DNA from: Alphaproteobacteria bacterium
GTDB lineage: Bacteria; Pseudomonadota; Alphaproteobacteria; UBA8366; Aestuariispiraceae
Length of the DNA stretch: 64,000 nucleotides
Assembly: GCA_030065235.1 (NCBI GenBank)
Contig: JASJDC010000005.1
Location: 248,001-312,000 of the forward strand
Reading direction: 5' to 3'
Notes under the pieces: model-generated
Database searches by the model: none
The model's input: the letters and a program-made list of their open reading frames with translations, nothing else
What the model was told of the DNA's origin: nothing
Translations under genes and position numbers: made by a program
Shown here: positions 5,555-61,844 of the stretch, piece by piece
Numbering within the stretch: position 1 is the first letter of the stretch
Layout: the number at the start of each line of letters is the position of its first letter

Positions 5555-6301
5555 GTGAGCGCGCTTTTCAAGGAACTGGCTTATCGTGAGACCCCGATCG
5601 GGGCGTTGAGCCTGCGGCGCCGTCGCGAACTGTCGCTTGATGTCGATGTCTATGAGATCAAGCTCGGCGATGAATTCTTGATGTCGAGCCTATTCACCGC
5701 GTCCGAGATCGCCTTGGCGGATCTTGGCGTGGCGGCGCTCGGCGCGCTCGAGCCGGGAGAGGCGGGGTTCGACATCGTCGTCGGCGGGCTCGGGCTCGGC
5801 TATACGGCGCAGGCGGTCCTGGCGCATCAGGCGGTGGGATCGCTGGTGGTCGTGGACTATTTGCAACCGATCATCGATTGGCACCGCACCGGCCTGTTGC
5901 CGCTTGGTCCAGAATTGACGGCCGATTCGCGCTGCCGCTTCGTGCAAGGCGACTTCTTCGCCATGGCGGAGGGAAAGTCTGGGGCGGAAATCGGCTTCGA
6001 TCCAGACCGTCCCGGCCGGCGGTTCGACGCGATCCTGGTGGATATCGACCACGCGCCGGATGCGCTGCTCGACGACCGCAGCGCCAGTTTCTACCGGCCG
6101 GCCGGGCTCGCCGCGCTGATGAACCATCTTAAGCCGGGCGGCGCCTTCGGTCTTTGGTCGAATGATCGACCCGATACGGCCTTTACTGAGCGGTTGGCCG
6201 GCGTTTTCGCCGAAGCCTGGGACGAGCCGGTGACCTTTCCCAACCCGCTTCAGGACCGGCCTTTCACCCAGACCGTCTATCTGGCGCGCGCGCCGCGGTA
6301 A
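5555..6301 (+). CDS. Spermidine synthase-like / SAM-fold protein
   Basis: 248 residues with the class I SAM-dependent fold of the spermidine synthase family: a glycine-rich motif IVVGGLGLGYTA near residues 70-81, an acidic loop VVVDYLQPI near 96, and DAILVDIDHAP near 160. Whether it makes polyamine or methylates a substrate cannot be told; related proteins are annotated only as spermidine synthase-like. The GTG at 5555 is chosen because it precedes the conserved region and follows the TPR gene by 45 nt. It converges with pyruvate kinase with 33 nt between stops. Confidence 0.72.
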   Translation: MSALFKELAYRETPIGALSLRRRRELSLDVDVYEIKLGDEFLMSSLFTASEIALADLGVAALGALEPGEAGFDIVVGGLGLGYTAQAVLAHQAVGSLVVVDYLQPIIDWHRTGLLPLGPELTADSRCRFVQGDFFAMAEGKSGAEIGFDPDRPGRRFDAILVDIDHAPDALLDDRSASFYRPAGLAALMNHLKPGGAFGLWSNDRPDTAFTERLAGVFAEAWDEPVTFPNPLQDRPFTQTVYLARAPR

Positions 6302-6334
6302 ATGCATCACGGGCGGTCGGCGCCCCAAGGGCGG

Positions 6335-7759
6335 CTATCCCCCCATGCCGATCCGGGCGATGCGCAGCATATTGGTGATGCCGGGCGCGCCGAACGGAAC
6401 GCCGGCCGTGATGATGACCCGGTCGCCGGGCCCGGCGATGCCGTCGATCCGCGCCTGATGGCCGGCGATCTCGACCATGTCCTCCAGGCTGTTGGCGTCC
6501 GGCGTGCGTCTGGAATGCACGCCCCAGACTATGGTCTGACGGCGGGCTGTCGTCTCGCGTGGAGTCAGGCTGACGATTGGATAGCGCGGGCGCTCGCGGG
6601 CGATCCGAAAAGCCGTCGATCCGCTGGTCGTATAGGTGACGATGGCGGCAGGGTTGATGCTGTCCGCCGCCACTTTCACAGCTGCGCTGATCGCGTCCGG
6701 CGTCGTGTCCTTGGCGTCGTTGTTCTGCGCTTCCAGACCGTCCCAGTAGGCGGGATCGTCCTGAACCCGCTCGACGATCCGGTTCATCATCGTGACCGCC
6801 TCGACCGGATAGGCGCCGGCGGCGGTCTCGCCGGATAACATGACCGCGTCGGCGCCCTCATAGACCGCGGTGGCGACGTCCGAAGCCTCGGCGCGCGTCG
6901 GCACCGGCCGTTCCATCATGCTGTCCAGCATCTGCGTCGCCACGACGACAGGCTTGCCGGCCTGCCGAGCGACTTGAACGATCCGGCGCTGTTGGATCGG
7001 CACATCCTCCGCCGGCATCTCCACGCCCAGATCGCCGCGCGCAACCATCACCGCATCCGCCAGATCCACGATCGGCTCCAGCCGTTCGATCGCCGCCGGC
7101 TTCTCCAGTTTCGCCAGGATGCCCGCTTGTTCGCCGATCAGGCCACGCGCCTCGACAATATCCTCCGGCCGCTGCACGAAGGACAGCGCTACCCAATCGA
7201 CGCCCAATTCCAGGCCGAAAGCGAGGTCGCGGCGGTCTTTTTCGGTGAGCGGCGACAGCGGCAACACCACGCCTGGCACATTGACGCCTTTGCGCTCCGA
7301 CAACGGACCGGCGACCACCACCTCGGTATCGGCGAATTTCTGGCCGCAGCTTTTCACCCGCAGGCGCACCTTGCCGTCATCCAGGAGTAGGTCGGCGCCC
7401 GGCTCCAGGGCCGCGAAAATCTCAGGATGCGGCAGGGTCGCGCGTTCCTGGTCGCCTGGCGCGTCGTGCAGATCCAGGCGGAAACGGTCACCGATGGCGA
7501 GTTCGATCGGACCTTCGGCGAATTTGCCGATCCGCAATTTCGGTCCTTGCAGGTCCATCATGATCCCGACAGGGCGGCCGGTGGAGCGTTCCAACTCGCG
7601 AATGGCCGCGTGCCGCGCCCGATGCTCGTCATGCTCGCCATGGGAGAAGTTCATCCGGAAGACATCGACGCCCGCCATGAACAGCGCCTCGATTTGTTCG
7701 GCGGTCCCGCTGGAAGGGCCAAGCGTGGCGAGAATTTTGGTGCGGTGTTTTCTTCTCAT
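6335..7759 (-). CDS. pyk: Pyruvate kinase
   Basis: Converts phosphoenolpyruvate and ADP to pyruvate and ATP, the last step of glycolysis. From the ATG at 7759 the protein is 474 residues and begins MRRKHRTKILATLGPSS, the usual pyruvate kinase start; upstream in-frame codons give a proline/arginine-rich tail that is unlikely to be real. MDLQGPKLRIG, the K-containing ALSFVQRPEDI region and VARGDLGVEMPAEDVP, with EKPAAI before it, are diagnostic. A short inverted repeat CCTTT-CCG-AAAGG lies just upstream of the start (7773-7785), close to the ribosome-binding region. Confidence 0.95.
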   Translation of the reverse strand: MRRKHRTKILATLGPSSGTAEQIEALFMAGVDVFRMNFSHGEHDEHRARHAAIRELERSTGRPVGIMMDLQGPKLRIGKFAEGPIELAIGDRFRLDLHDAPGDQERATLPHPEIFAALEPGADLLLDDGKVRLRVKSCGQKFADTEVVVAGPLSERKGVNVPGVVLPLSPLTEKDRRDLAFGLELGVDWVALSFVQRPEDIVEARGLIGEQAGILAKLEKPAAIERLEPIVDLADAVMVARGDLGVEMPAEDVPIQQRRIVQVARQAGKPVVVATQMLDSMMERPVPTRAEASDVATAVYEGADAVMLSGETAAGAYPVEAVTMMNRIVERVQDDPAYWDGLEAQNNDAKDTTPDAISAAVKVAADSINPAAIVTYTTSGSTAFRIARERPRYPIVSLTPRETTARRQTIVWGVHSRRTPDANSLEDMVEIAGHQARIDGIAGPGDRVIITAGVPFGAPGITNMLRIARIGMGG

Positions 7760-42536: not shown

Positions 42537-42623
42537 GCGGTCGTGGCGGAATTGGTAGACGCGCAGCGTTGAGGTCGCTGTCCGGTAACACGGGTGGAAG
42601 TTCGAGTCTTCTCGACCGCACCA
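42537..42623 (+). tRNA. tRNA-Leu (anticodon GAG), with encoded CCA
   Basis: 87 nt. Acceptor GCGGTCG pairs perfectly with CGACCGC; D-arm GCGG-AATTGGTAGA-CGC; anticodon stem CAGCG/CGCTG with 7-nt loop TTGAGGT (anticodon GAG); long variable arm of a class II tRNA; T-arm GGAAG-TTCGAGT-CTTCT; discriminator A and CCA in the DNA. The prophage integrase starts 137 nt after it. Confidence 0.95.
42597..42623 (+). other. Probable prophage attL in the tRNA 3' end
   Basis: Tyrosine-recombinase phages usually insert in the 3' half of a tRNA gene, leaving an intact tRNA on one side. The T-arm/acceptor end of tRNA-Leu is directly followed by the integrase gene, so the crossover lies here. The exact core cannot be set because attR is beyond the window. 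Confidence 0.6.
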
Positions 42624-42724: not shown

Positions 42725-42753
42725 TTGACACCCTGTTACGAACGAATTACGAA
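42725..42753 (+). promoter_or_regulatory. Integrase promoter with direct repeats
   Basis: TTGACA at 42,725-42,730 and TACGAA at 42,748-42,753 with 17 bp between give a start at about 42,760, next to the ATG at 42,761, so the message may be leaderless. Two direct TTACGAA repeats (42,736-42,742 and 42,747-42,753, 11 bp apart) overlap the -10 and could bind integrase or excisionase. Confidence 0.4.
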
Positions 42754-42760
42754 TCTCGCT

Positions 42761-43735
42761 ATGGCGACGTTTCGGAAATTGCCGTCGGGCAAGTGGCAGG
42801 CGCAGGTGGCGCGCAAGGGGGTGCGGCGGTCGGCCAGTTTCGACACAAAGCGCTCGGCGCAAGACTGGGCGGCGCGTCAGGAATACCTGGCTCTAAACCA
42901 ATCGGCGGACACTGACAAATCGACCTTGGCCGATCTGTTCGATCGCTATGCGCGCGACGAATCGCCGAAGCGACGCGGCGCGCGTTGGGAAGTGATCCGA
43001 CTGAGCCGGCTGGCGCGCGACCCGCTCGGGCAGGTCCGGGTGTCGGAGGTCGGTCCAAGCGATCTTGCCGCCTGGCGCGATCGGCGGATGGCTGAGGTGT
43101 CCGCCGGTTCCGTGCGGCGTGAACTGGCGCTGCTGTCGGCCGTGTTCAACGTCGCGTGCCGAGAGTGGCGCGTCCTCGATCAGAATCCTGTCTCGGAGAT
43201 CAGAAAGCCGCCGCCCACGCCGCCACGGGATCGCCGCGTCTCTGACGACGAAATTGAGCTCTTGGTCGCGGCCGGCGGCGGGGATCTGCAGAGCAAGACA
43301 GGGCGGGCGGTGCATGCCTTTCTGTTCGCGATCGAGACGGCCATGCGCGCCGGCGAGATCGCCCGGTTGACGGACGCGGATGTCGATCGGACGGCGCGGG
43401 TCGCGCATTTGGCGCTGACCAAGAACGGGTCCGCGCGGGACGTGCCGCTATCGCGCCGAGCGATTGACCTGATCGACGCTTTGCCGGCGCAAAAGGCTGG
43501 GCGCGCGCTTTTCGGGCTTAGCAGCGCGCAGATCGATGTTCTGTTTCGAAAGGCCCGTGACAAGGCGGCGATCGCGGATCTGACCTTTCACGACAGCCGC
43601 CACGAGGCGATCACACGGTTGTCGCGCAAGCTCGACGTACTCAGCCTAGCCCGGTCGGTCGGCCACAAAGATGTTCGGATGCTGATGGTCTATTACAATG
43701 AAAGCGCCCAGGACCTGGCGCAGCGGTTGGACTAA
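42761..43735 (+). CDS. int: Prophage tyrosine integrase
   Basis: 324 residues from the ATG at 42,761. N-terminal arm-binding part (MATFRKLPSGKWQAQVARKG, with SFDTKRSAQDWAARQE), core-binding domain (LADLFDRYARDESPKRRGARWE) and catalytic domain with Arg in ETAMRAGEIARLT, Lys in LTKNGSARDVPLS, HxxR in FHDSRHEAITRL, His in VGHKDVRMLMVYY and the nucleophile Tyr in the last motif. Integrates the phage at the adjacent tRNA-Leu. Its stop overlaps the convergent excisionase-like gene by 4 nt. Confidence 0.93.
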   Translation: MATFRKLPSGKWQAQVARKGVRRSASFDTKRSAQDWAARQEYLALNQSADTDKSTLADLFDRYARDESPKRRGARWEVIRLSRLARDPLGQVRVSEVGPSDLAAWRDRRMAEVSAGSVRRELALLSAVFNVACREWRVLDQNPVSEIRKPPPTPPRDRRVSDDEIELLVAAGGGDLQSKTGRAVHAFLFAIETAMRAGEIARLTDADVDRTARVAHLALTKNGSARDVPLSRRAIDLIDALPAQKAGRALFGLSSAQIDVLFRKARDKAAIADLTFHDSRHEAITRLSRKLDVLSLARSVGHKDVRMLMVYYNESAQDLAQRLD

Positions 43736-47543: not shown

Positions 47544-48134
47544 TCAGATTGCTCCAACCCTGGGGGTGGGACGGCCGGCCTGGCCAAAGTAGAGTTCAAG
47601 GCGTGTCAACCATTCCTCGGCGGCGCGGGGCCAGGACCATGTTTTGATCGGCATGGGCAGGGGTGAGGGCAACGCGTAGCTCCAATGGCGGCTGGTCGGG
47701 GCCAACAGGTCGCGGCGCTCGGTCGCCAGCAGGGTCAGGTCGGCGAATTTCACATTCGCCTCGGCGGTCGGGTCGAGCGGCGTCTCCAGGCCCGCCGCCG
47801 CGTAGATGGCGCGATCGGTGATCTCGGTGAGCTGTTCCAGAGCGCGGGCGCCGTCCAGGGCTTTGAAGGCCTCTTTCAAGGGCGCGGTCTGATCGCCGAC
47901 AAACGCCTCATGGGCGTCATGCAACAGGCCATGCAGGCGCCATTCCGGCGGCAGGCTGTCGGCGACGAGGCAGCAATGCTGGGCGACGCTGTAAAAGTGG
48001 GTCGTGTGGCCGTTGAAGCGGCACAGCTTCGCCAGGCTCTCGGCGATGTCGGGCCAATGCACCTGATCCGGGGTCGGGCTGAGCAGGTCCCAGGTTCGGC
48101 CTGACGCCGTTTGCATCCAGGGGTCGGCGCTCAT
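47544..48134 (-). CDS. HD-domain phosphohydrolase (YfbR-like)
   Basis: 196 residues from the ATG at 48,134. HD-superfamily nucleotidase: [19 protein letters not shown] near residue 40-58 and the HD motif [12 protein letters not shown] near 70-80 followed by an Asp, as in 5'-deoxynucleotidases YfbR. Probably adjusts the nucleotide pool during phage replication. Overlaps the following small gene by 4 nt (ATGA). Confidence 0.82.
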
Positions 48135-48310
48135 GGCGCAAGTCCCCCGGCGCGCAGGGCCGCTGCGGCGGCGGTGACCAGGGCGGCGAGGGTGAGGGCC
48201 AGCCACATCCATCCGAACGGGGTCAGGGTGTTCAGGGCGCGGCGCAGGGCGCTGCGCCGGTGAGAACGGGTCGGGAAAGGACCGTCTTCGGTTCTGTTGA
48301 GTTTCGGCAT
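48131..48310 (-). CDS. Small membrane protein
   Basis: 59 residues from the ATG at 48,310. Basic start (MPKLNRTEDGPFPTRSHRRS) then one long hydrophobic helix (WMWLALTLAALVTAAAAAL). Overlaps the HD gene start by 4 nt. No known family; the coupling suggests it is a real gene. Confidence 0.5.
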   Translation of the reverse strand: MPKLNRTEDGPFPTRSHRRSALRRALNTLTPFGWMWLALTLAALVTAAAAALRAGGLAP

Positions 48311-54044: not shown

Positions 54045-55070
54045 ATGAGCGCGGCGGGCCGAGATCGGGCGTTCCGCGAGGCGGTCCGGGCGCGCACGTC
54101 TCTGGTCTCGTTGATCGGCGCGGATGTGGCGTTGAAGCGGCGGGGGCGCGAGCATTGGGCCTGCTGCCCGTTCCATTCGGAAAAGACCGCTTCCTTCTCG
54201 GTCAGCGAGGAGAAAGGCTTCGCCCATTGCTTCGGCTGCGGCTTTCATGGCGACGCGTTCGATTATGTGATGGAACGCACGGGCTGCGATTTCCCGACGG
54301 CTTTGGAGGATCTGGCGATCCGCGCGGGTCTGCGGCCGGATCGCGACGGCCGGGTGCGGCCGAAGGCCAAACCCGTCGCGCGGCTGAGCGCCGAGCAGCT
54401 GGCGCAACAGTCGGCCGAGGCGATCCGGCGCGCCGCCGAGATTTGGCGCGCGAGCCGTCCCGTTGGCGGCACGCTGGTCGAGACCTACCTCCGGTCGCGC
54501 GGGATCGAGCCCGCCGCGATCCCCGGCTGGCCCTTGCCGACGCTGCGGTTCCATCCCGGCCTCGACCATTGGGTGGAGACGCGCGAGGCGAAAAAGGCCT
54601 GGCGGTTCCTGGGCGCGTTCCCGGCGATGATCGCTTTCGTGCAGCGCCCGGACAAGAGCTTCGCGGGCGTGCATCGCACCTGGCTGCGCGCCGATGGCGC
54701 GGGCAAGGCGGCCTCGCCGAGCGCGAAGAAAATGTTGGGCGATACCTATGGCGGCGCGCTGCGCCTCTGCCCGGCGGCGTCGGAGTTGGCGGTCGCCGAG
54801 GGGATCGAGACGGCGCTGTCGGTGCGCATGGCGACCGGGCTGCCGGTCTGGGCGGCGCTGTCGGAGGGGAACCTGGGCGCGGCGCTGCCGCCGATCTGCC
54901 GGCGGGTCATCCTCTGCGCCGACAATGACACGAAGGACAAAAAGACCACGGCCAACCGGCTGGAAAAATCGCGTGCGGCCCACGCCGCGCGCGGCTGCAC
55001 CGTCAGCCTCTGCCGCCCGCCCGAGGGCATGGACTTTAACGACCTGCTGCTGCGGGGGGCGGTGGTGTGA
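54045..55070 (+). CDS. Phage DNA primase (CHC2 zinc finger + Toprim)
   Basis: 341 residues. CHC2-type zinc finger CCPFHSEKTASF...CFGCGFHGDAFDYVMERTG near residues 35-75, linker, and a Toprim domain (AVAEGIETALSVRMATG, RRVILCADNDTKDKK) near 240-310. Lays primers for phage DNA replication; no helicase domain, so it probably works with the P4-type protein encoded downstream. First gene of the replication block. Confidence 0.88.
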   Translation: MSAAGRDRAFREAVRARTSLVSLIGADVALKRRGREHWACCPFHSEKTASFSVSEEKGFAHCFGCGFHGDAFDYVMERTGCDFPTALEDLAIRAGLRPDRDGRVRPKAKPVARLSAEQLAQQSAEAIRRAAEIWRASRPVGGTLVETYLRSRGIEPAAIPGWPLPTLRFHPGLDHWVETREAKKAWRFLGAFPAMIAFVQRPDKSFAGVHRTWLRADGAGKAASPSAKKMLGDTYGGALRLCPAASELAVAEGIETALSVRMATGLPVWAALSEGNLGAALPPICRRVILCADNDTKDKKTTANRLEKSRAAHAARGCTVSLCRPPEGMDFNDLLLRGAVV

Positions 55071-56553: not shown

Positions 56554-56624
56554 CCCGGCCGGAAGCGAGCGCCGAGAAATCGCCGCAGACGCGCGCAGCG
56601 GTCCCTTCGGGTGGTGAGTCGTGA
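56550..56624 (+). CDS. 24-residue coupled peptide
   Basis: Starts in the methyltransferase stop (ATGA) and stops in the next start (GTGA). The peptide has the PQ-RA--PS-G pattern also found at the start of the 57,550 gene, and their DNA is similar over ~35 bases. May be a duplicated leader rather than a functional protein. Confidence 0.25.
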   Translation: MTRPEASAEKSPQTRAAVPSGGES

Positions 56625-57553
56625 GGAACGTTAAATCTTATAGCGGGGGGAAGGACAGCACCGCTATGTACCTGCTCGCCCTGGAGCAAGGGCGCGAATT
56701 CCTGCCGGTGTTTGCGGATACCGGAAACGAGCATGAACTCACCCTGGACTATGTCCGACAGCTGCCGGCCAAGACGGGCGGGCCGGAGATTCGGTGGGTC
56801 AAGGCTGATTTCTCCGAAGACATCGCGCGCAAGCGCAAGTTCGTTGCCGCGACGTGGCCGGAGAAGGGGGTGCCGCAGGACCGAGTGAATCGCGCCTTGG
56901 TGGTGCTGCAGCCGACCGGCGTCCCGTTCCTTGATCTGTGCTTGTTGAAAGGCCGGTTTCCCAGCACGCGCGCGCGATTCTGCTCTTCGGAACTGAAACA
57001 TATTCCGATCTTCGAGCAAGTGATCAATCCACTCTTGGAAGCCGGCGAGACGGTCGTATCCTGGCAAGGGGTCCGGGCTGAGGAGAGCGCGCGGCGCGCG
57101 GCGTTGCCGAAACTGGAGCGGTTGGGCGGCGGTTTGTTCAATTGGCGTCCGTTGCTTCATTGGACCTGGCAAGACGTTTTCGACATCCATCGCCGCCATG
57201 GTGTTGAGCCGAACCCGCTTTACACGATGGGTGCGGGGCGCGTCGGCTGTATGCCCTGCATCCATGCGCGCAAGGACGAAATCGCCAATATCGGCGCGCG
57301 GTTCCCGGAGCATGTCGCGCGGATCGCCGAATGGGAACGACTGGTCGGCGAGGCATCCAAACGCGGGATTTCCTCTTTCTTCGCGCATGACAAGACGCCG
57401 GGTGATCATCAGGGCCGCGTCGATATCCCGATGCCAGGGATTCATGAGGTGGTGGAATGGGCGAAAACGTCCAGAGGCGGCCGGCAGTACGACGCGTTGC
57501 GGGCGCTGATCGACCCGCCGAAATGCTCGTCGCTTTATGGGTTGTGTGAGTGA
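56621..57553 (+). CDS. PAPS-reductase-like PP-loop protein
   Basis: 310 residues from the GTG at 56,621. PP-loop ATP-binding motif SYSGGKDSTAMYLLAL at the start, and cysteines in RFCSSELKHIPIF and VGCMPCIHARKD. Such phage-encoded phosphoadenosine-phosphosulfate-reductase-like proteins are common next to methyltransferases; related DndC proteins take part in DNA sulfur modification. The reaction here is unknown. Confidence 0.78.
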   Translation: MRNVKSYSGGKDSTAMYLLALEQGREFLPVFADTGNEHELTLDYVRQLPAKTGGPEIRWVKADFSEDIARKRKFVAATWPEKGVPQDRVNRALVVLQPTGVPFLDLCLLKGRFPSTRARFCSSELKHIPIFEQVINPLLEAGETVVSWQGVRAEESARRAALPKLERLGGGLFNWRPLLHWTWQDVFDIHRRHGVEPNPLYTMGAGRVGCMPCIHARKDEIANIGARFPEHVARIAEWERLVGEASKRGISSFFAHDKTPGDHQGRVDIPMPGIHEVVEWAKTSRGGRQYDALRALIDPPKCSSLYGLCE

Positions 57554-57909
57554 GAGCGGCCGATATGACGTTCACTGAAAGACCGCCGCAGGAGCGCGCA
57601 ACCGCCCCTTCGGATGGTGCGGGTGCGGACGGGGGCGTTGAGGGCGGCCCCGAAGCATTCAACGCGACGCGTTCGAACGCTTCCGCGCATCTCGACCCCG
57701 ACGGGCGGTTTATCCATCTCTGCGCGCATCCGGGCTGCGATTCTTGGGGCCTGTTCGGGCTCGGCGTCTCGATGCTGTCGGGCGTGTTCGGGCGCTGGTT
57801 CTGCGCGGCGCATATCGACGCGGCTTTGGCGGGACGTGCTGATCAGGGGCGCGGCGGCCCGCCAGGCGGGCGGCCGGCGGATGCGCAGGGGCAAGGACGG
57901 TTGCTGTGA
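57550..57909 (+). CDS. Phage zinc-finger-like protein
   Basis: 119 residues (114 from the ATG at 57,565). Conserved part FIHLCAHPGCDSWGLFGLG...GRWFCAAH has a CxxxxC...CxxH zinc-binding look. The tail is Gly/Arg/Pro-rich. Start overlaps the PAPS-like stop. Family unnamed. Confidence 0.5.
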   Translation: MRAADMTFTERPPQERATAPSDGAGADGGVEGGPEAFNATRSNASAHLDPDGRFIHLCAHPGCDSWGLFGLGVSMLSGVFGRWFCAAHIDAALAGRADQGRGGPPGGRPADAQGQGRLL

Positions 57910-59513
57910 GCGACGAGGGGGTGGAAGGCGGCGCGCCGGAGCCGGGACCGGAGCCTGGTTCCGCTCCAGGGGCGGAGGCGATCCGGGGCATCGTCTCTCA
58001 GGCCCAGGTCGTGCGGTTTCCCGGCGGCGGCGATGGCGGCGGCCCAGGCGGCGGCGCGGGAAGCGGGGGCGAAGACATCAATCTCGCGCTGGCGGAGAAG
58101 GAACGGAATGATATCGGCAACGCCGAGCGGTTTCTGGCCCGGCATGGCGATGCGCTGCTGCATGTGCGCGAGGTCGGCTGGCACCATTGGACCGGCGCGC
58201 GCTGGAGCCCGGACGGCGCGGATGAGGCGGTCAAGACCAAGACCCATGAAACCGCGCGCTCGATCATGGAGGAATTGGCGGCCCTGCAGAAGCGCGGCCG
58301 GCCCGACAAGGTCCCGCCAGGCGATTGGGAAGAACGCCTGGAAAAACTCCTGAACTGGTCGATCCGGTCGGGCGACAGGGGCAAGCTGGAGGCGATGGCG
58401 GCGGAGGCCGCGCCCTATCTGTCCGTCCCGCCGGAGGCCATGGATTCGGACCCGTTCCTGCTGAACCTGGCGAACGGGACGCTGCGGCTGGAAGGGGCGT
58501 GTGACGCGCTTCGGCCGCACAATCCGAATGACCGATTGGCCAAGATCATGGATGTGGGTTTCGACCCGGAAGCGGTCTGCCCAGAGTTCGATCGGTTCTT
58601 GGCGCGGGTGCAGCCGGACCCGGACATTCGCGCGTTCCTGCAGGTCTGGACCGGCTATTGCCTGACCGGGGCCACGGGCGAGCAGAAACTGGTTTTCAAC
58701 TTTGGCGAGGGCGGCAACGGCAAGTCGGTGTTTGTCGATTTGATCGCCAAGATGATGGGGCCGTATGCGGTCTCGCTGCCCTTCGCCTCGCTTGTGCGCG
58801 ACGATCGCAAGCGCGGGGCCGAGGCGACGCCGGATCTGGCGCGGCTGCCGGGCGCTCGGATGGTGCGGGCGTCGGAGCCGGAGAAGGGCGCGCGATTCGC
58901 AGAGGCCGCGATCAAGGCGATCACCGGCGGCGAGGAAATCACCGTCCGGCATCTCAATCACGGGTTTTTCGATTTCGTTCCGACCTTCAAGCTGACGCTC
59001 AGCGGCAACCACAAGCCGTCGATACGCGGACAGGACCGGGGCATTTGGCGGCGATTTTTGCTGGTGCCGTGGGATGTGAACCTGCCGGAGGAGGAACAGG
59101 ACACGGACCTGCCGGCGAAACTCTGGGCCGAACGGTCGGGCGTGCTGAACTGGATGCTCGACGGCGCGCGGATCTGGCTGGAGCGCGGTCTGGTTGTGCC
59201 GGCGGCGGTGATGGACGCCACGAATGAGTATCGCGCCGATTCGGACCCGCTCGGCCGGTTCATCGCGGAATGTCTGGAGACGGCGTCGGGCCAGACCGTC
59301 CAGGCGGCGCTGATGTATGACGCCTACAAGGCTTGGTGCTCGGCCAATGCGGAGCGGGCCTGGTCGATGACGGCGTTCGGCCGCGCCATGCCCGAGCGTG
59401 GTGTGGAGAAGTCGGACGGGCGTATACGGGTCTATCTGAATGTGCGGTTGGTGAATGTGCCGGAAGGGGACCGTGACCCGCCGCCGGCGGACGGGCCGGA
59501 GGATTATGGCTAA
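57906..59513 (+). CDS. P4-type primase/helicase (D5-like superfamily 3)
   Basis: 535 residues from the GTG at 57,906. After a Gly/Pro-rich start, a D5 N-terminal domain and a superfamily-3 helicase: Walker A NFGEGGNGKSVFVDLI near residues 266-281, Walker B-like ARMVRASEPEKGARF, sensor TLSGNHKPSIRGQDRGIWRR. Related to the alpha protein of satellite phage P4, which binds iterons at its origin and unwinds DNA. Directly upstream of the repeat cluster at 59,513. Confidence 0.88.
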   Translation: MSDEGVEGGAPEPGPEPGSAPGAEAIRGIVSQAQVVRFPGGGDGGGPGGGAGSGGEDINLALAEKERNDIGNAERFLARHGDALLHVREVGWHHWTGARWSPDGADEAVKTKTHETARSIMEELAALQKRGRPDKVPPGDWEERLEKLLNWSIRSGDRGKLEAMAAEAAPYLSVPPEAMDSDPFLLNLANGTLRLEGACDALRPHNPNDRLAKIMDVGFDPEAVCPEFDRFLARVQPDPDIRAFLQVWTGYCLTGATGEQKLVFNFGEGGNGKSVFVDLIAKMMGPYAVSLPFASLVRDDRKRGAEATPDLARLPGARMVRASEPEKGARFAEAAIKAITGGEEITVRHLNHGFFDFVPTFKLTLSGNHKPSIRGQDRGIWRRFLLVPWDVNLPEEEQDTDLPAKLWAERSGVLNWMLDGARIWLERGLVVPAAVMDATNEYRADSDPLGRFIAECLETASGQTVQAALMYDAYKAWCSANAERAWSMTAFGRAMPERGVEKSDGRIRVYLNVRLVNVPEGDRDPPPADGPEDYG

Positions 59514-59751
59514 ACCCTCGCAACCCTCGCAAACCCTCGCACGAAATCGCCCAGGCGGAGCGCCGGTTTGCGAGGGTTGCGAGGGTTGCGAGGGTTTTTC
59601 CGGCCCTCGCGCATGTAGGCGCGCGCGCATGCGCGTGGACCTGACATAACTATCGCAACCCTCGCAGGTGATGAATAAGATGTTGAAAACAATAAAGAAT
59701 GTGAAACACAAACCCTCGCGCCAAACCCTCGCGAACCCTCGCAACCCTCGC
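59513..59751. repeat. Iteron-like cluster: 11 copies of AACCCTCGC around an AT-rich stretch (candidate origin)
   Basis: Direct copies at 59,513, 59,522, 59,532, 59,657, 59,711, 59,724, 59,734 and 59,743; inverted copies (GCGAGGGTT) at 59,570, 59,579 and 59,588. Spacing is 9-11 bp inside each group. Positions 59,666-59,712 are AT-rich, unusual in this GC-rich region. The first two groups can pair into a long hairpin followed by TTTTT, so a terminator role for that part is an alternative. Iterons plus an AT-rich melt zone next to a P4-type helicase resemble a phage replication origin. Confidence 0.6.
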
Positions 59752-59754
59752 AGG

Positions 59755-60303
59755 GTGATTGATGTCGAGAGATTGCTCGAATGGACCTATCAGGATCAGG
59801 CGGCGGATGCGGTGGCGCGGCGGGAGTCGGCGTTGGCCGCGCCGGCGGGGGCGCGCAGCTGCTTGGTCGCGGTCGAGCGTCAGGGTATGTTGGGGGTGCG
59901 GATCGATTGTGCAGGTGCGGGCATGATGCACGCCCCTGGCGCACATCCCGATGCGGAGGCGGTGCATGAGGCGCTCTGTCGGCTAAAGCCTTTATGGATC
60001 GGACTGCTGATCGATTACGGGAAGTCCGGGGCCGCGCCGGATTGGATGCCGGGGGCGACGCCCAGGCCGGAGCCGATCCTGCGCTCGAATGGCAAGCCGC
60101 AGGTGGAATACTACGACCGCCCCGCCTGTCGGCGTCCCGCCTATTGCCCGCTGCGCTACAACCCGGAGCCGGAGCACCTGGCCTTCGCCCGTGAAATCTA
60201 TGCAGAGTGGTGGTCGGCGCTGGCGGCGCTGGCCGAGTCCTTGCCGGTATTGGCCATGCATGAGGTGACCGGCCCGAGCGCGCCGCGCGCGCCGTGGTTG
60301 TGA
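59755..60303 (+). CDS. Hypothetical phage protein
   Basis: 182 residues from the GTG at 59,755, right after the last iteron; upstream in-frame ATGs would put the repeats inside the coding region. Sequence VERLLEWTYQDQAADAVARRESALAA, then a Cys-rich end (YDRPACRRPAYCPLRYNPEP) with no known domain. Last gene before the terminator at 60,359. Confidence 0.55.
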   Translation: MIDVERLLEWTYQDQAADAVARRESALAAPAGARSCLVAVERQGMLGVRIDCAGAGMMHAPGAHPDAEAVHEALCRLKPLWIGLLIDYGKSGAAPDWMPGATPRPEPILRSNGKPQVEYYDRPACRRPAYCPLRYNPEPEHLAFAREIYAEWWSALAALAESLPVLAMHEVTGPSAPRAPWL

Positions 60304-60521: not shown

Positions 60522-60569
60522 GGTTGACGGCGGTTGACTCGGTTGACGCTGGCCTGGGCCAGGGTTGAC
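60522..60569 (+). repeat. Four direct GGTTGAC repeats upstream of the ParB-methyltransferase gene
   Basis: GGTTGAC at 60,522, 60,532, 60,541 and 60,563: intervals 10, 9 and 22 bp, about one, one and two helical turns, so all face one side of the DNA. The last copy ends 21 nt before the ATG. Likely a regulator binding site. Confidence 0.65.
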
Positions 60570-60590
60570 CGAGCGCGTCGGGGTGCGGCT

Positions 60591-61844
60591 ATGGCTCAAG
60601 AAATTGGTGCTGAGAAGATTGAGCGGCGCGCGGTCGCTGATCTCGTGCCTTACGCACGGAACGCGCGCGCGCATTCCGATGAGCAAATCTCGGTGCTGGC
60701 GGCGAGCATCGGTCGGTACGGGTTCAACAATCCGGTCCTGGTCGATGAGGCGGGCGGCATCATCGCGGGTCACGGTCGAGTGCTCGCGGCTAAGCGGCTG
60801 GGGATGGAGACGGTTCCGGTCGTGCCGCTGGCTCATCTGACCGAGGACGAAAAGCGGGCCTATATCCTGGCGGACAACAAGACCGCTGAATTGGCGGGTT
60901 GGGACGAGGATCTGCTGCGAATCGAAGTGGCCGACCTGGCGGAGAAAGATTTCGACCTGAGCGGCATCGGGTTCAACGAAAAGGAAATTACCAAACTACT
61001 GGTCGAGCCGGACCCGACTGACGACAACGGCGACGAGGGGTCGGACCCGGATTCCGCGCCGGAGGCCAAGTCCGATCCGGTTTCCATGCTGGGCGACGTG
61101 TGGCGGCTCGGGGCGCATCGTCTGGTCTGTGGGGATTCGACGGATCCTGAGACGGTCGAAGTCCTCATGGTCGGCCAGCTGGCGGACCTCGTCTTCACCG
61201 ACCCGCCGTATGGCGTTGGCTACACCGGCGGCAAAAAGAAGTGGGTCGGCATCAAGAACGATGATGTCGTGAGTGGTGATCTTGTGGCGTTCCTTGTTGC
61301 TGTTTTTGCGAACTTGGATGCGTTCTCGGAGAAAGATGCGGCTTGGTACATCTGGCACGCAGCGAATACGAGTGCAGAGTTTTACAGCGCGCTTGCCGAG
61401 ACCGGCAGGAAGGCAAGCGCGCAGATTGTGTGGGTCAAGAATGTTATGGCTGGAGGTTTCGGTCACTACCGTTCTCGCCATGAGCCGTGCATTTACGTGT
61501 CGGGCAAAAACTACGCTGGCCGTGACCAAGACACGGTCTGGAACGTAAAAAAGGAGCACGGGTATTTGCACCCGACACAAAAACCGGTTCGCCTGGTCGA
61601 GCGCGCCCTGCGGAACAGCAGCCGACGGGGAGATGTGGTGTTGGACGTTTTCGGCGGGTCCGGGTCCACGTTGATCGCGTGCGAGCGGACGGGCCGGGCG
61701 GCGCGGTTGGTCGAATTGGACCCGCGCTATGTGGATGTGATCGTGCGGCGTTGGCAGGAATTCACCGGCGAGATCGCGACACTCGAAGGGTCTGGAAAGG
61801 CCTTTGAGGAGGTGGCGCAGGAACGCTTTGCGGCGGCCGCTTGA
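60591..61844 (+). CDS. ParB-domain DNA methyltransferase fusion
   Basis: 417 residues from the ATG at 60,591. N-terminal ParB/Srx-like domain (IERRAVADLVPYARNARAHSDEQISVLAASI, IIAGHGRVLAAKRLG, LADNKTAELAGWDE), a linker with acidic stretch, and a C-terminal amino-methyltransferase with DPPYGVGY (motif IV) before FGGSGSTLIACE (motif I), the beta-class order. ParB-MTase fusions are common near terminases in temperate phages and methylate phage DNA. The gene is followed 8 nt later by the small terminase. Confidence 0.9.
   Translation: MAQEIGAEKIERRAVADLVPYARNARAHSDEQISVLAASIGRYGFNNPVLVDEAGGIIAGHGRVLAAKRLGMETVPVVPLAHLTEDEKRAYILADNKTAELAGWDEDLLRIEVADLAEKDFDLSGIGFNEKEITKLLVEPDPTDDNGDEGSDPDSAPEAKSDPVSMLGDVWRLGAHRLVCGDSTDPETVEVLMVGQLADLVFTDPPYGVGYTGGKKKWVGIKNDDVVSGDLVAFLVAVFANLDAFSEKDAAWYIWHAANTSAEFYSALAETGRKASAQIVWVKNVMAGGFGHYRSRHEPCIYVSGKNYAGRDQDTVWNVKKEHGYLHPTQKPVRLVERALRNSSRRGDVVLDVFGGSGSTLIACERTGRAARLVELDPRYVDVIVRRWQEFTGEIATLEGSGKAFEEVAQERFAAAA

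Follow-up and report, generated by a model that had tools for sequence, protein, structure and literature searches.

The P4 alpha protein carries a fused primase, and P4 has separate ori and crr sites. The closest known systems to the locus described here are the SaPI/PICI and SCCmec Rep-iteron origins and the origins of lactic phages. In SCCmec, the isolated C-terminal domain of the D5-type protein Cch2 binds iterons just 3' of its own gene (PMC7581432), and a plasmid can be replicated from a PICI rep-ori, in which two iteron sets lie either side of an AT-rich region (PMC6092414). Lactobacillus phages phiadh (NC_000896) and A2 (AJ251789) have an annotated rep_origin directly after a homologous primase-helicase.

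The window analyzed here is the whole stretch of 64,000 nucleotides from an Alphaproteobacteria bacterium, and all coordinates are window positions unless another locus is named. It contains an array of 9-bp iterons directly after a helicase gene. As a whole, this array is best explained as the replication origin of a prophage, driven by the adjacent helicase, and on the comparative sequence analysis we consider that reading very probable. The kind of origin is already known; the interesting part is the matching of iteron to helicase C-terminal domain across the family.

The prophage and its helicase

The element is a tailed prophage at tRNA-Leu, and 16-bp repeats of the tRNA end at both ends give its bounds and its size of about 40.4 kb. 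The integrase (42725-43735) adjoins the attL-like repeat and tRNA-Leu. Terminase, portal, head, tape-measure and tail genes lie 3' of the array, and possession of these genes rules the element out as a PICI satellite. The relevant features on the 5' side of the array are as follows.

42608-42623, plus strand: attL-like 16-bp tRNA-Leu end, with its copy at window-equivalent 83023-83038, beyond the window.
54045-55070, plus strand: DnaG-like primase (CHC2 zinc finger and Toprim) in a gene of its own, apart from the helicase; proposed primer source.
57906-59513, plus strand: P4/D5-family SF3 helicase, 535 aa, from profile and fold matches; proposed origin-binding initiator.
59241-59453, plus strand: winged-helix-like C-terminal domain of the helicase (residues ~446-516), proposed iteron reader, with G505-R506-I507-R508 at 59418-59429.

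Other genes of the prophage include a member of the deoxyribonucleoside 5' monophosphate phosphatase family (47544-48212), an N6/N4 DNA methyltransferase with a fused ParB-like N-terminal domain (60534-61844), and a phosphoadenosine phosphosulfate reductase-like gene inside the replication module (56621-57553), a similar one being found near the helicase of phage RR1-A.

The helicase matches D5_N, DUF5906 and Pox_D5 in Pfam and DNA primase families in PHROG, and scores E = 3 × 10−77 against TIGR01613, with 259.3 bits, above the curated cut-off of 108.7. Profile matches are to D5 and PrimPol chains. The AlphaFold2 model, with a mean pLDDT of 89.7, has the SF3 AAA+ helicase fold, and its best Foldseek matches are to ASFV PrimPol. 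The C-terminal end of the model is a helix-helix-hairpin, which we read as a predicted winged helix, with G505-R506-I507-R508 positioned on the turn of the wing. The helicase was not found in any of the other 13 genomes of the same bacterial family.

The iteron array

The array spans 59513-59751 and comprises the following parts.

59513-59540, plus strand: left block, three direct iterons, exact matches with homologous sites in 8 relatives.
59570-59596, minus strand: left block, three inverted iterons, exact matches with homologous sites in relatives.
59648-59665, plus strand: central tandem of AACTATCGC (59648-59656) and AACCCTCGC (59657-59665), the TATCGC variant being conserved in relatives.
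59666-59710, no strand: AT-rich segment of 45 bp, proposed melting site from its AT content.
59711-59751, plus strand: right block, four direct iterons, exact matches with homologous sites, inside the reading frame that continues into the following gene.

The unit AACCCTCGC occurs exactly 11 times, with 8 copies on the plus strand (starts 59513, 59522, 59532, 59657, 59711, 59724, 59734 and 59743) and 3 on the minus strand (starts 59570, 59579 and 59588). Since the rest of the 4.18-Mb genome contains only 26 more copies, each of them isolated, 11 copies in 239 bp are far beyond chance. A 12th site is the variant AACTATCGC, whose TCGC core is present in 8 of 9 aligned sequences. The AT-rich segment is 71% AT and separates the central tandem from the right block. 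Among all 45-mers of the prophage within the window, 21,333 in number, it ranks about 10th for AT content. There is no switch of GC skew at the array site, a result that is uninformative. An Rfam search gave no match, and among the matches listed by a literature search on the unit AACCCTCGC, none concerns phage origins by title or abstract.

An earlier note, made from the sequence alone, had described eleven 9-bp units, eight direct and three inverted, and each of them proves exact in position. Their placement directly 3' of a P4-type helicase also stands, the first unit overlapping the stop codon of the helicase (TAA 59511-59513). The helical-turn spacing that the note reported is only approximate: adjacent units run head to tail 9-10 bp apart, once 13, and the start-to-start jumps between blocks are 38, 69 and 54 bp. 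The flanked AT-rich stretch is present between blocks, at 45 bp and not 47. The description of the element as non-coding is only partly right, given the overlap with the stop codon and the open frame that runs through the right block.

Helicase and array in other genomes

The relatives were collected in two ways. IMG/VR was scanned for pairs of neighboring units, which yielded 76 stretches, and the 55 of these with at least 5 units were kept. A homologous helicase ends at most 600 bp upstream of the array in 44 of the 55. Of the 11 arrays without one, 6 sit no more than 100 bp from the end of their contig; L062, taken up below, is also among the 11. The helicases that adjoin arrays of AACCCTCGC-type units have about 32-82% identity. 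Reading from the helicase, the strand order is +---+--++-++ in many of them, while close relatives of the window have +++---+++++ or something similar. Two loci, L005 (1839-2002) and L031 (1870-2033), each have seven CCCTCGC units in the order +------, with no D5-type helicase detected nearby, even though neither array is at a contig end; these may use another initiator or one that acts in trans.

The second set consists of 123 loci picked by the helicase alone from phage contigs, genomes and named phages. The region from −60 to +440 of the helicase stop was searched, and a 7-mer array was called significant if it was matched by at most 1 of 100 dinucleotide shuffles. By this measure, 89 of the 123 have a significant array, usually of a unit other than AACCCTCGC, and the mean count of the top 7-mer is 5.8, versus 2.8 in a control stretch immediately upstream and 3.0 in one farther downstream. 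All these tests are comparative, and kinship among the loci inflates the raw counts. In the other 34, among them L086 (46% identity), an array was not detected there, nor was one in phiSASD1, Javan499 or a small Thermaerobacter plasmid. The earlier note had proposed a search of relatives with the same helicase, and the outcome is that AACCCTCGC clusters lie beside the helicase in such relatives and that other units occupy the place beside more distant helicases.

Units specific to lineages include TAGGGAGGC, AGGGACGC, AACCCTACA, AACTGTCAC, CCTTCCA and ATCCTCCC, along with others, and they align to a shared profile near AACCCTC[G/C]C, in an alignment that was seeded with the unit of the window so that the skeleton is partly imposed. 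An early guess at the skeleton, GGGNNGNNR, was dropped in favor of the aligned family profile.

A case outside phages is the circular 46-kb plasmid of Methylobacterium currus (L232), in which AACCCTCGC and AACTATCGC units (6194-6563) follow a P4-family primase. No other recognized replication gene was found on it among the annotated genes and those unannotated stretches that were tested, and by its sequence the plasmid appears to replicate by a helicase-iteron module of the phage type. The same plasmid carries a type I-E CRISPR-Cas system and chromate genes.

Matching of the unit to the C-terminal domain

Iteron profiles per locus were compared with 97 nonredundant helicases by partial Mantel tests. 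Iteron distance correlates with C-terminal-domain distance when the ATPase core is controlled (0.45, p = 0.001); with the C-terminus controlled, the correlation of iteron distance to core distance is 0.06 (p = 0.14). The pattern suggests that the C-terminal domains of these helicases each read their own 9-letter word. A case at close range is L090, where the helicase is 82% identical and nearly all units at the homologous sites are TATCGC, not CCCTCGC.

A candidate for what does the reading is the Arg-x-Arg on the wing. Tabulated against units ending in TCGC, Arg-x-Arg gives counts of 40/5/4/48, for a Fisher odds ratio of 96 and p = 6 × 10−17, which are raw values with some of the Arg-x-Arg calls being regex artefacts. 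On the core tree, there are 2 joint gains of Arg-x-Arg and TCGC among 4 TCGC changes, with p of about 0.012 under random placement, and because there are only two such gains we take the association as a lead only. In line with what this lead predicts, L090 has kept Arg-x-Arg together with the TCGC end.

We may now ask how far this generalizes. In tailed phages, plasmids and satellites alike, the SF3 helicase initiators might share one origin design, with the C-terminal winged helix reading a variable word of about 9 bp built on a common skeleton near AACCCTC[G/C]C, and with the origin and the wing changing together; we put this forward tentatively, as an idea with slightly less than an even chance. 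Under that shared design, the wing-tip Arg-x-Arg would read the TCGC end, again as a lead only. If the design is true, iterons would be predictable from helicase sequence and origins could be located in many uncharacterized phages. The matched pairs of helicase and 9-letter word make a rule of protein-DNA matching testable, and with so many natural pairs one can examine how a single family of winged helices recognizes different DNA words.

Site conservation, the downstream gene and a possible left-block hairpin

When nine close relatives are aligned, most of the columns without any change are those of the TCGC cores of the iterons. Two further features come into consideration when the array is read in other ways.

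59680-60303, plus strand: downstream gene, ATG at 59680, the start inferred from relatives; PHROG 9306 for the longer ORF.
59512-59597, plus strand: potential hairpin of the left direct against the left inverted iterons, with T5 after it; the predicted RNA fold has −68.7 kcal/mol and z = −8.5.

The right block sits in a reading frame that stays open into the downstream gene, and this frame is likewise open in relatives including L006, L014, L028, L041, L070 and L090, so that the DNA of the right block is probably both origin and coding sequence. The N-terminal motif of the protein resembles IExLLxWAYxxELPK and reads VERLLEWTYQDQAAD in the window. This overlap of the array with the start region of the gene, together with the capacity of such binding sites to serve several roles, is what favors regarding the array as an operator or an incompatibility-type control site, which the helicase or some other DNA-binding protein of the phage would occupy to control the next gene or copy number while replication starts elsewhere. 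That reading is very unlikely, as the identity of the unit follows the helicase C-terminal domain, the annotated phiadh and A2 origins are at the same place, and a similar N-terminal motif occurs after the array in just 33 of 95 loci, whereas the arrays follow the helicase.

Another way to read the left block, with its +++/--- order, is mainly as a terminator or RNA hairpin ending the helicase operon, the other copies being incidental. The hairpin is predicted to be very stable and has its T5 tail, and 93.7% of cells are paired, with 12 pairs showing two-sided changes. But a direct and an inverted iteron are complementary to about the same degree whether or not the two correspond in register, and with no register-specific advantage, iterons changing in parallel explain the covariation. 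The T-run is not retained in all relatives, a scan for consensus terminators (with loops of 3-8 only) found nothing, and the central and right blocks are conserved direct repeats, unable to form the hairpin of the left block. A main function as terminator, which the earlier note had named as what could overturn its reading, is therefore rejected on the register test and the variable T-run, leaving it highly improbable. The hairpin is probably a by-product of oppositely oriented iterons that change in parallel, and may have a secondary role in termination.

That the repeats are chance, or a coding tandem repeat lacking regulatory function, does explain L062, where no helicase was detected and the array translates in open frames into short repeated peptides, but for the array in the window it is barely credible and is rejected on the conservation of individual sites, with units on both strands, unequal gaps, invariant cores at homologous positions, and recurrence beside helicases of about 32-82% identity.

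Proposed mechanism and comparison with known origins

The array as a replication origin is thus the reading carried forward. It is based on the anatomy, the co-occurrence with the helicase, the conserved positions of sites and the covariation with the C-terminal domain; binding by the helicase, the geometry of its oligomers, the melting site, the source of primers and the direction of replication are what we infer. By analogy to Cch2 and SaPI Rep, the C-terminal winged helix of the helicase would bind the 9-bp iterons, and helicase hexamers should assemble on the blocks flanking the 45-bp AT-rich segment, open this segment, and load themselves there. The DnaG-like primase would then supply primers for extension by a host polymerase. 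If this is right, the array makes replication easy to approach by experiment in many temperate phages, both within and outside Alphaproteobacteria, and the SaPI/PICI type of origin extends to complete phages and a plasmid.

The origin reading of the earlier note is supported by the helicase-adjacent arrays in relatives, the tracking of the C-terminal domain, the annotated Lactobacillus origins and the published precedents. Its choice of P4 as the model is right as to family, the helicase having the P4-family primase C-terminal domain (TIGR01613), but SaPI/PICI-type origins fit better. Unlike P4, which is compared here by description, the window has a separate primase gene and a probable origin adjoining the helicase gene.

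Like SaPI/PICI elements, the locus has its probable origin right behind the gene for the initiator helicase (rep) (PMC6092414, PMC7581432), and a similar layout of left and central units, 45-bp AT-rich segment and right block. It differs in belonging to a complete tailed prophage of about 40 kb with its own capsid and tail genes, in having its primase as a separate DnaG-like gene, and in its unit, a GC-rich 9-mer. SCCmec Cch2 is alike in having a helicase of the D5_N/primase C-terminal type with iterons directly 3' of the gene, but its site, compared by description and not by alignment, has three AAGTG iterons, and its partner is the polymerase CCPol-MP versus the DnaG-like primase here (PMC7581432).

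The lactic phages phiadh and A2 have repeated units at the annotated rep_origin, in the homologous place. In phiadh (L229, 2846-3231) these are AACCCTACAC and AACTATACAC around an AT-rich stretch, within the annotated rep_origin, and these CCC and CTA variants parallel AACCCTCGC and AACTATCGC in the group of the window. The differences are that phiadh and A2 are phages of Firmicutes, that their helicase is fused to a longer N-terminal part and has 31-35% identity to the helicase of the window, and that the 3' half of the unit is not the same.
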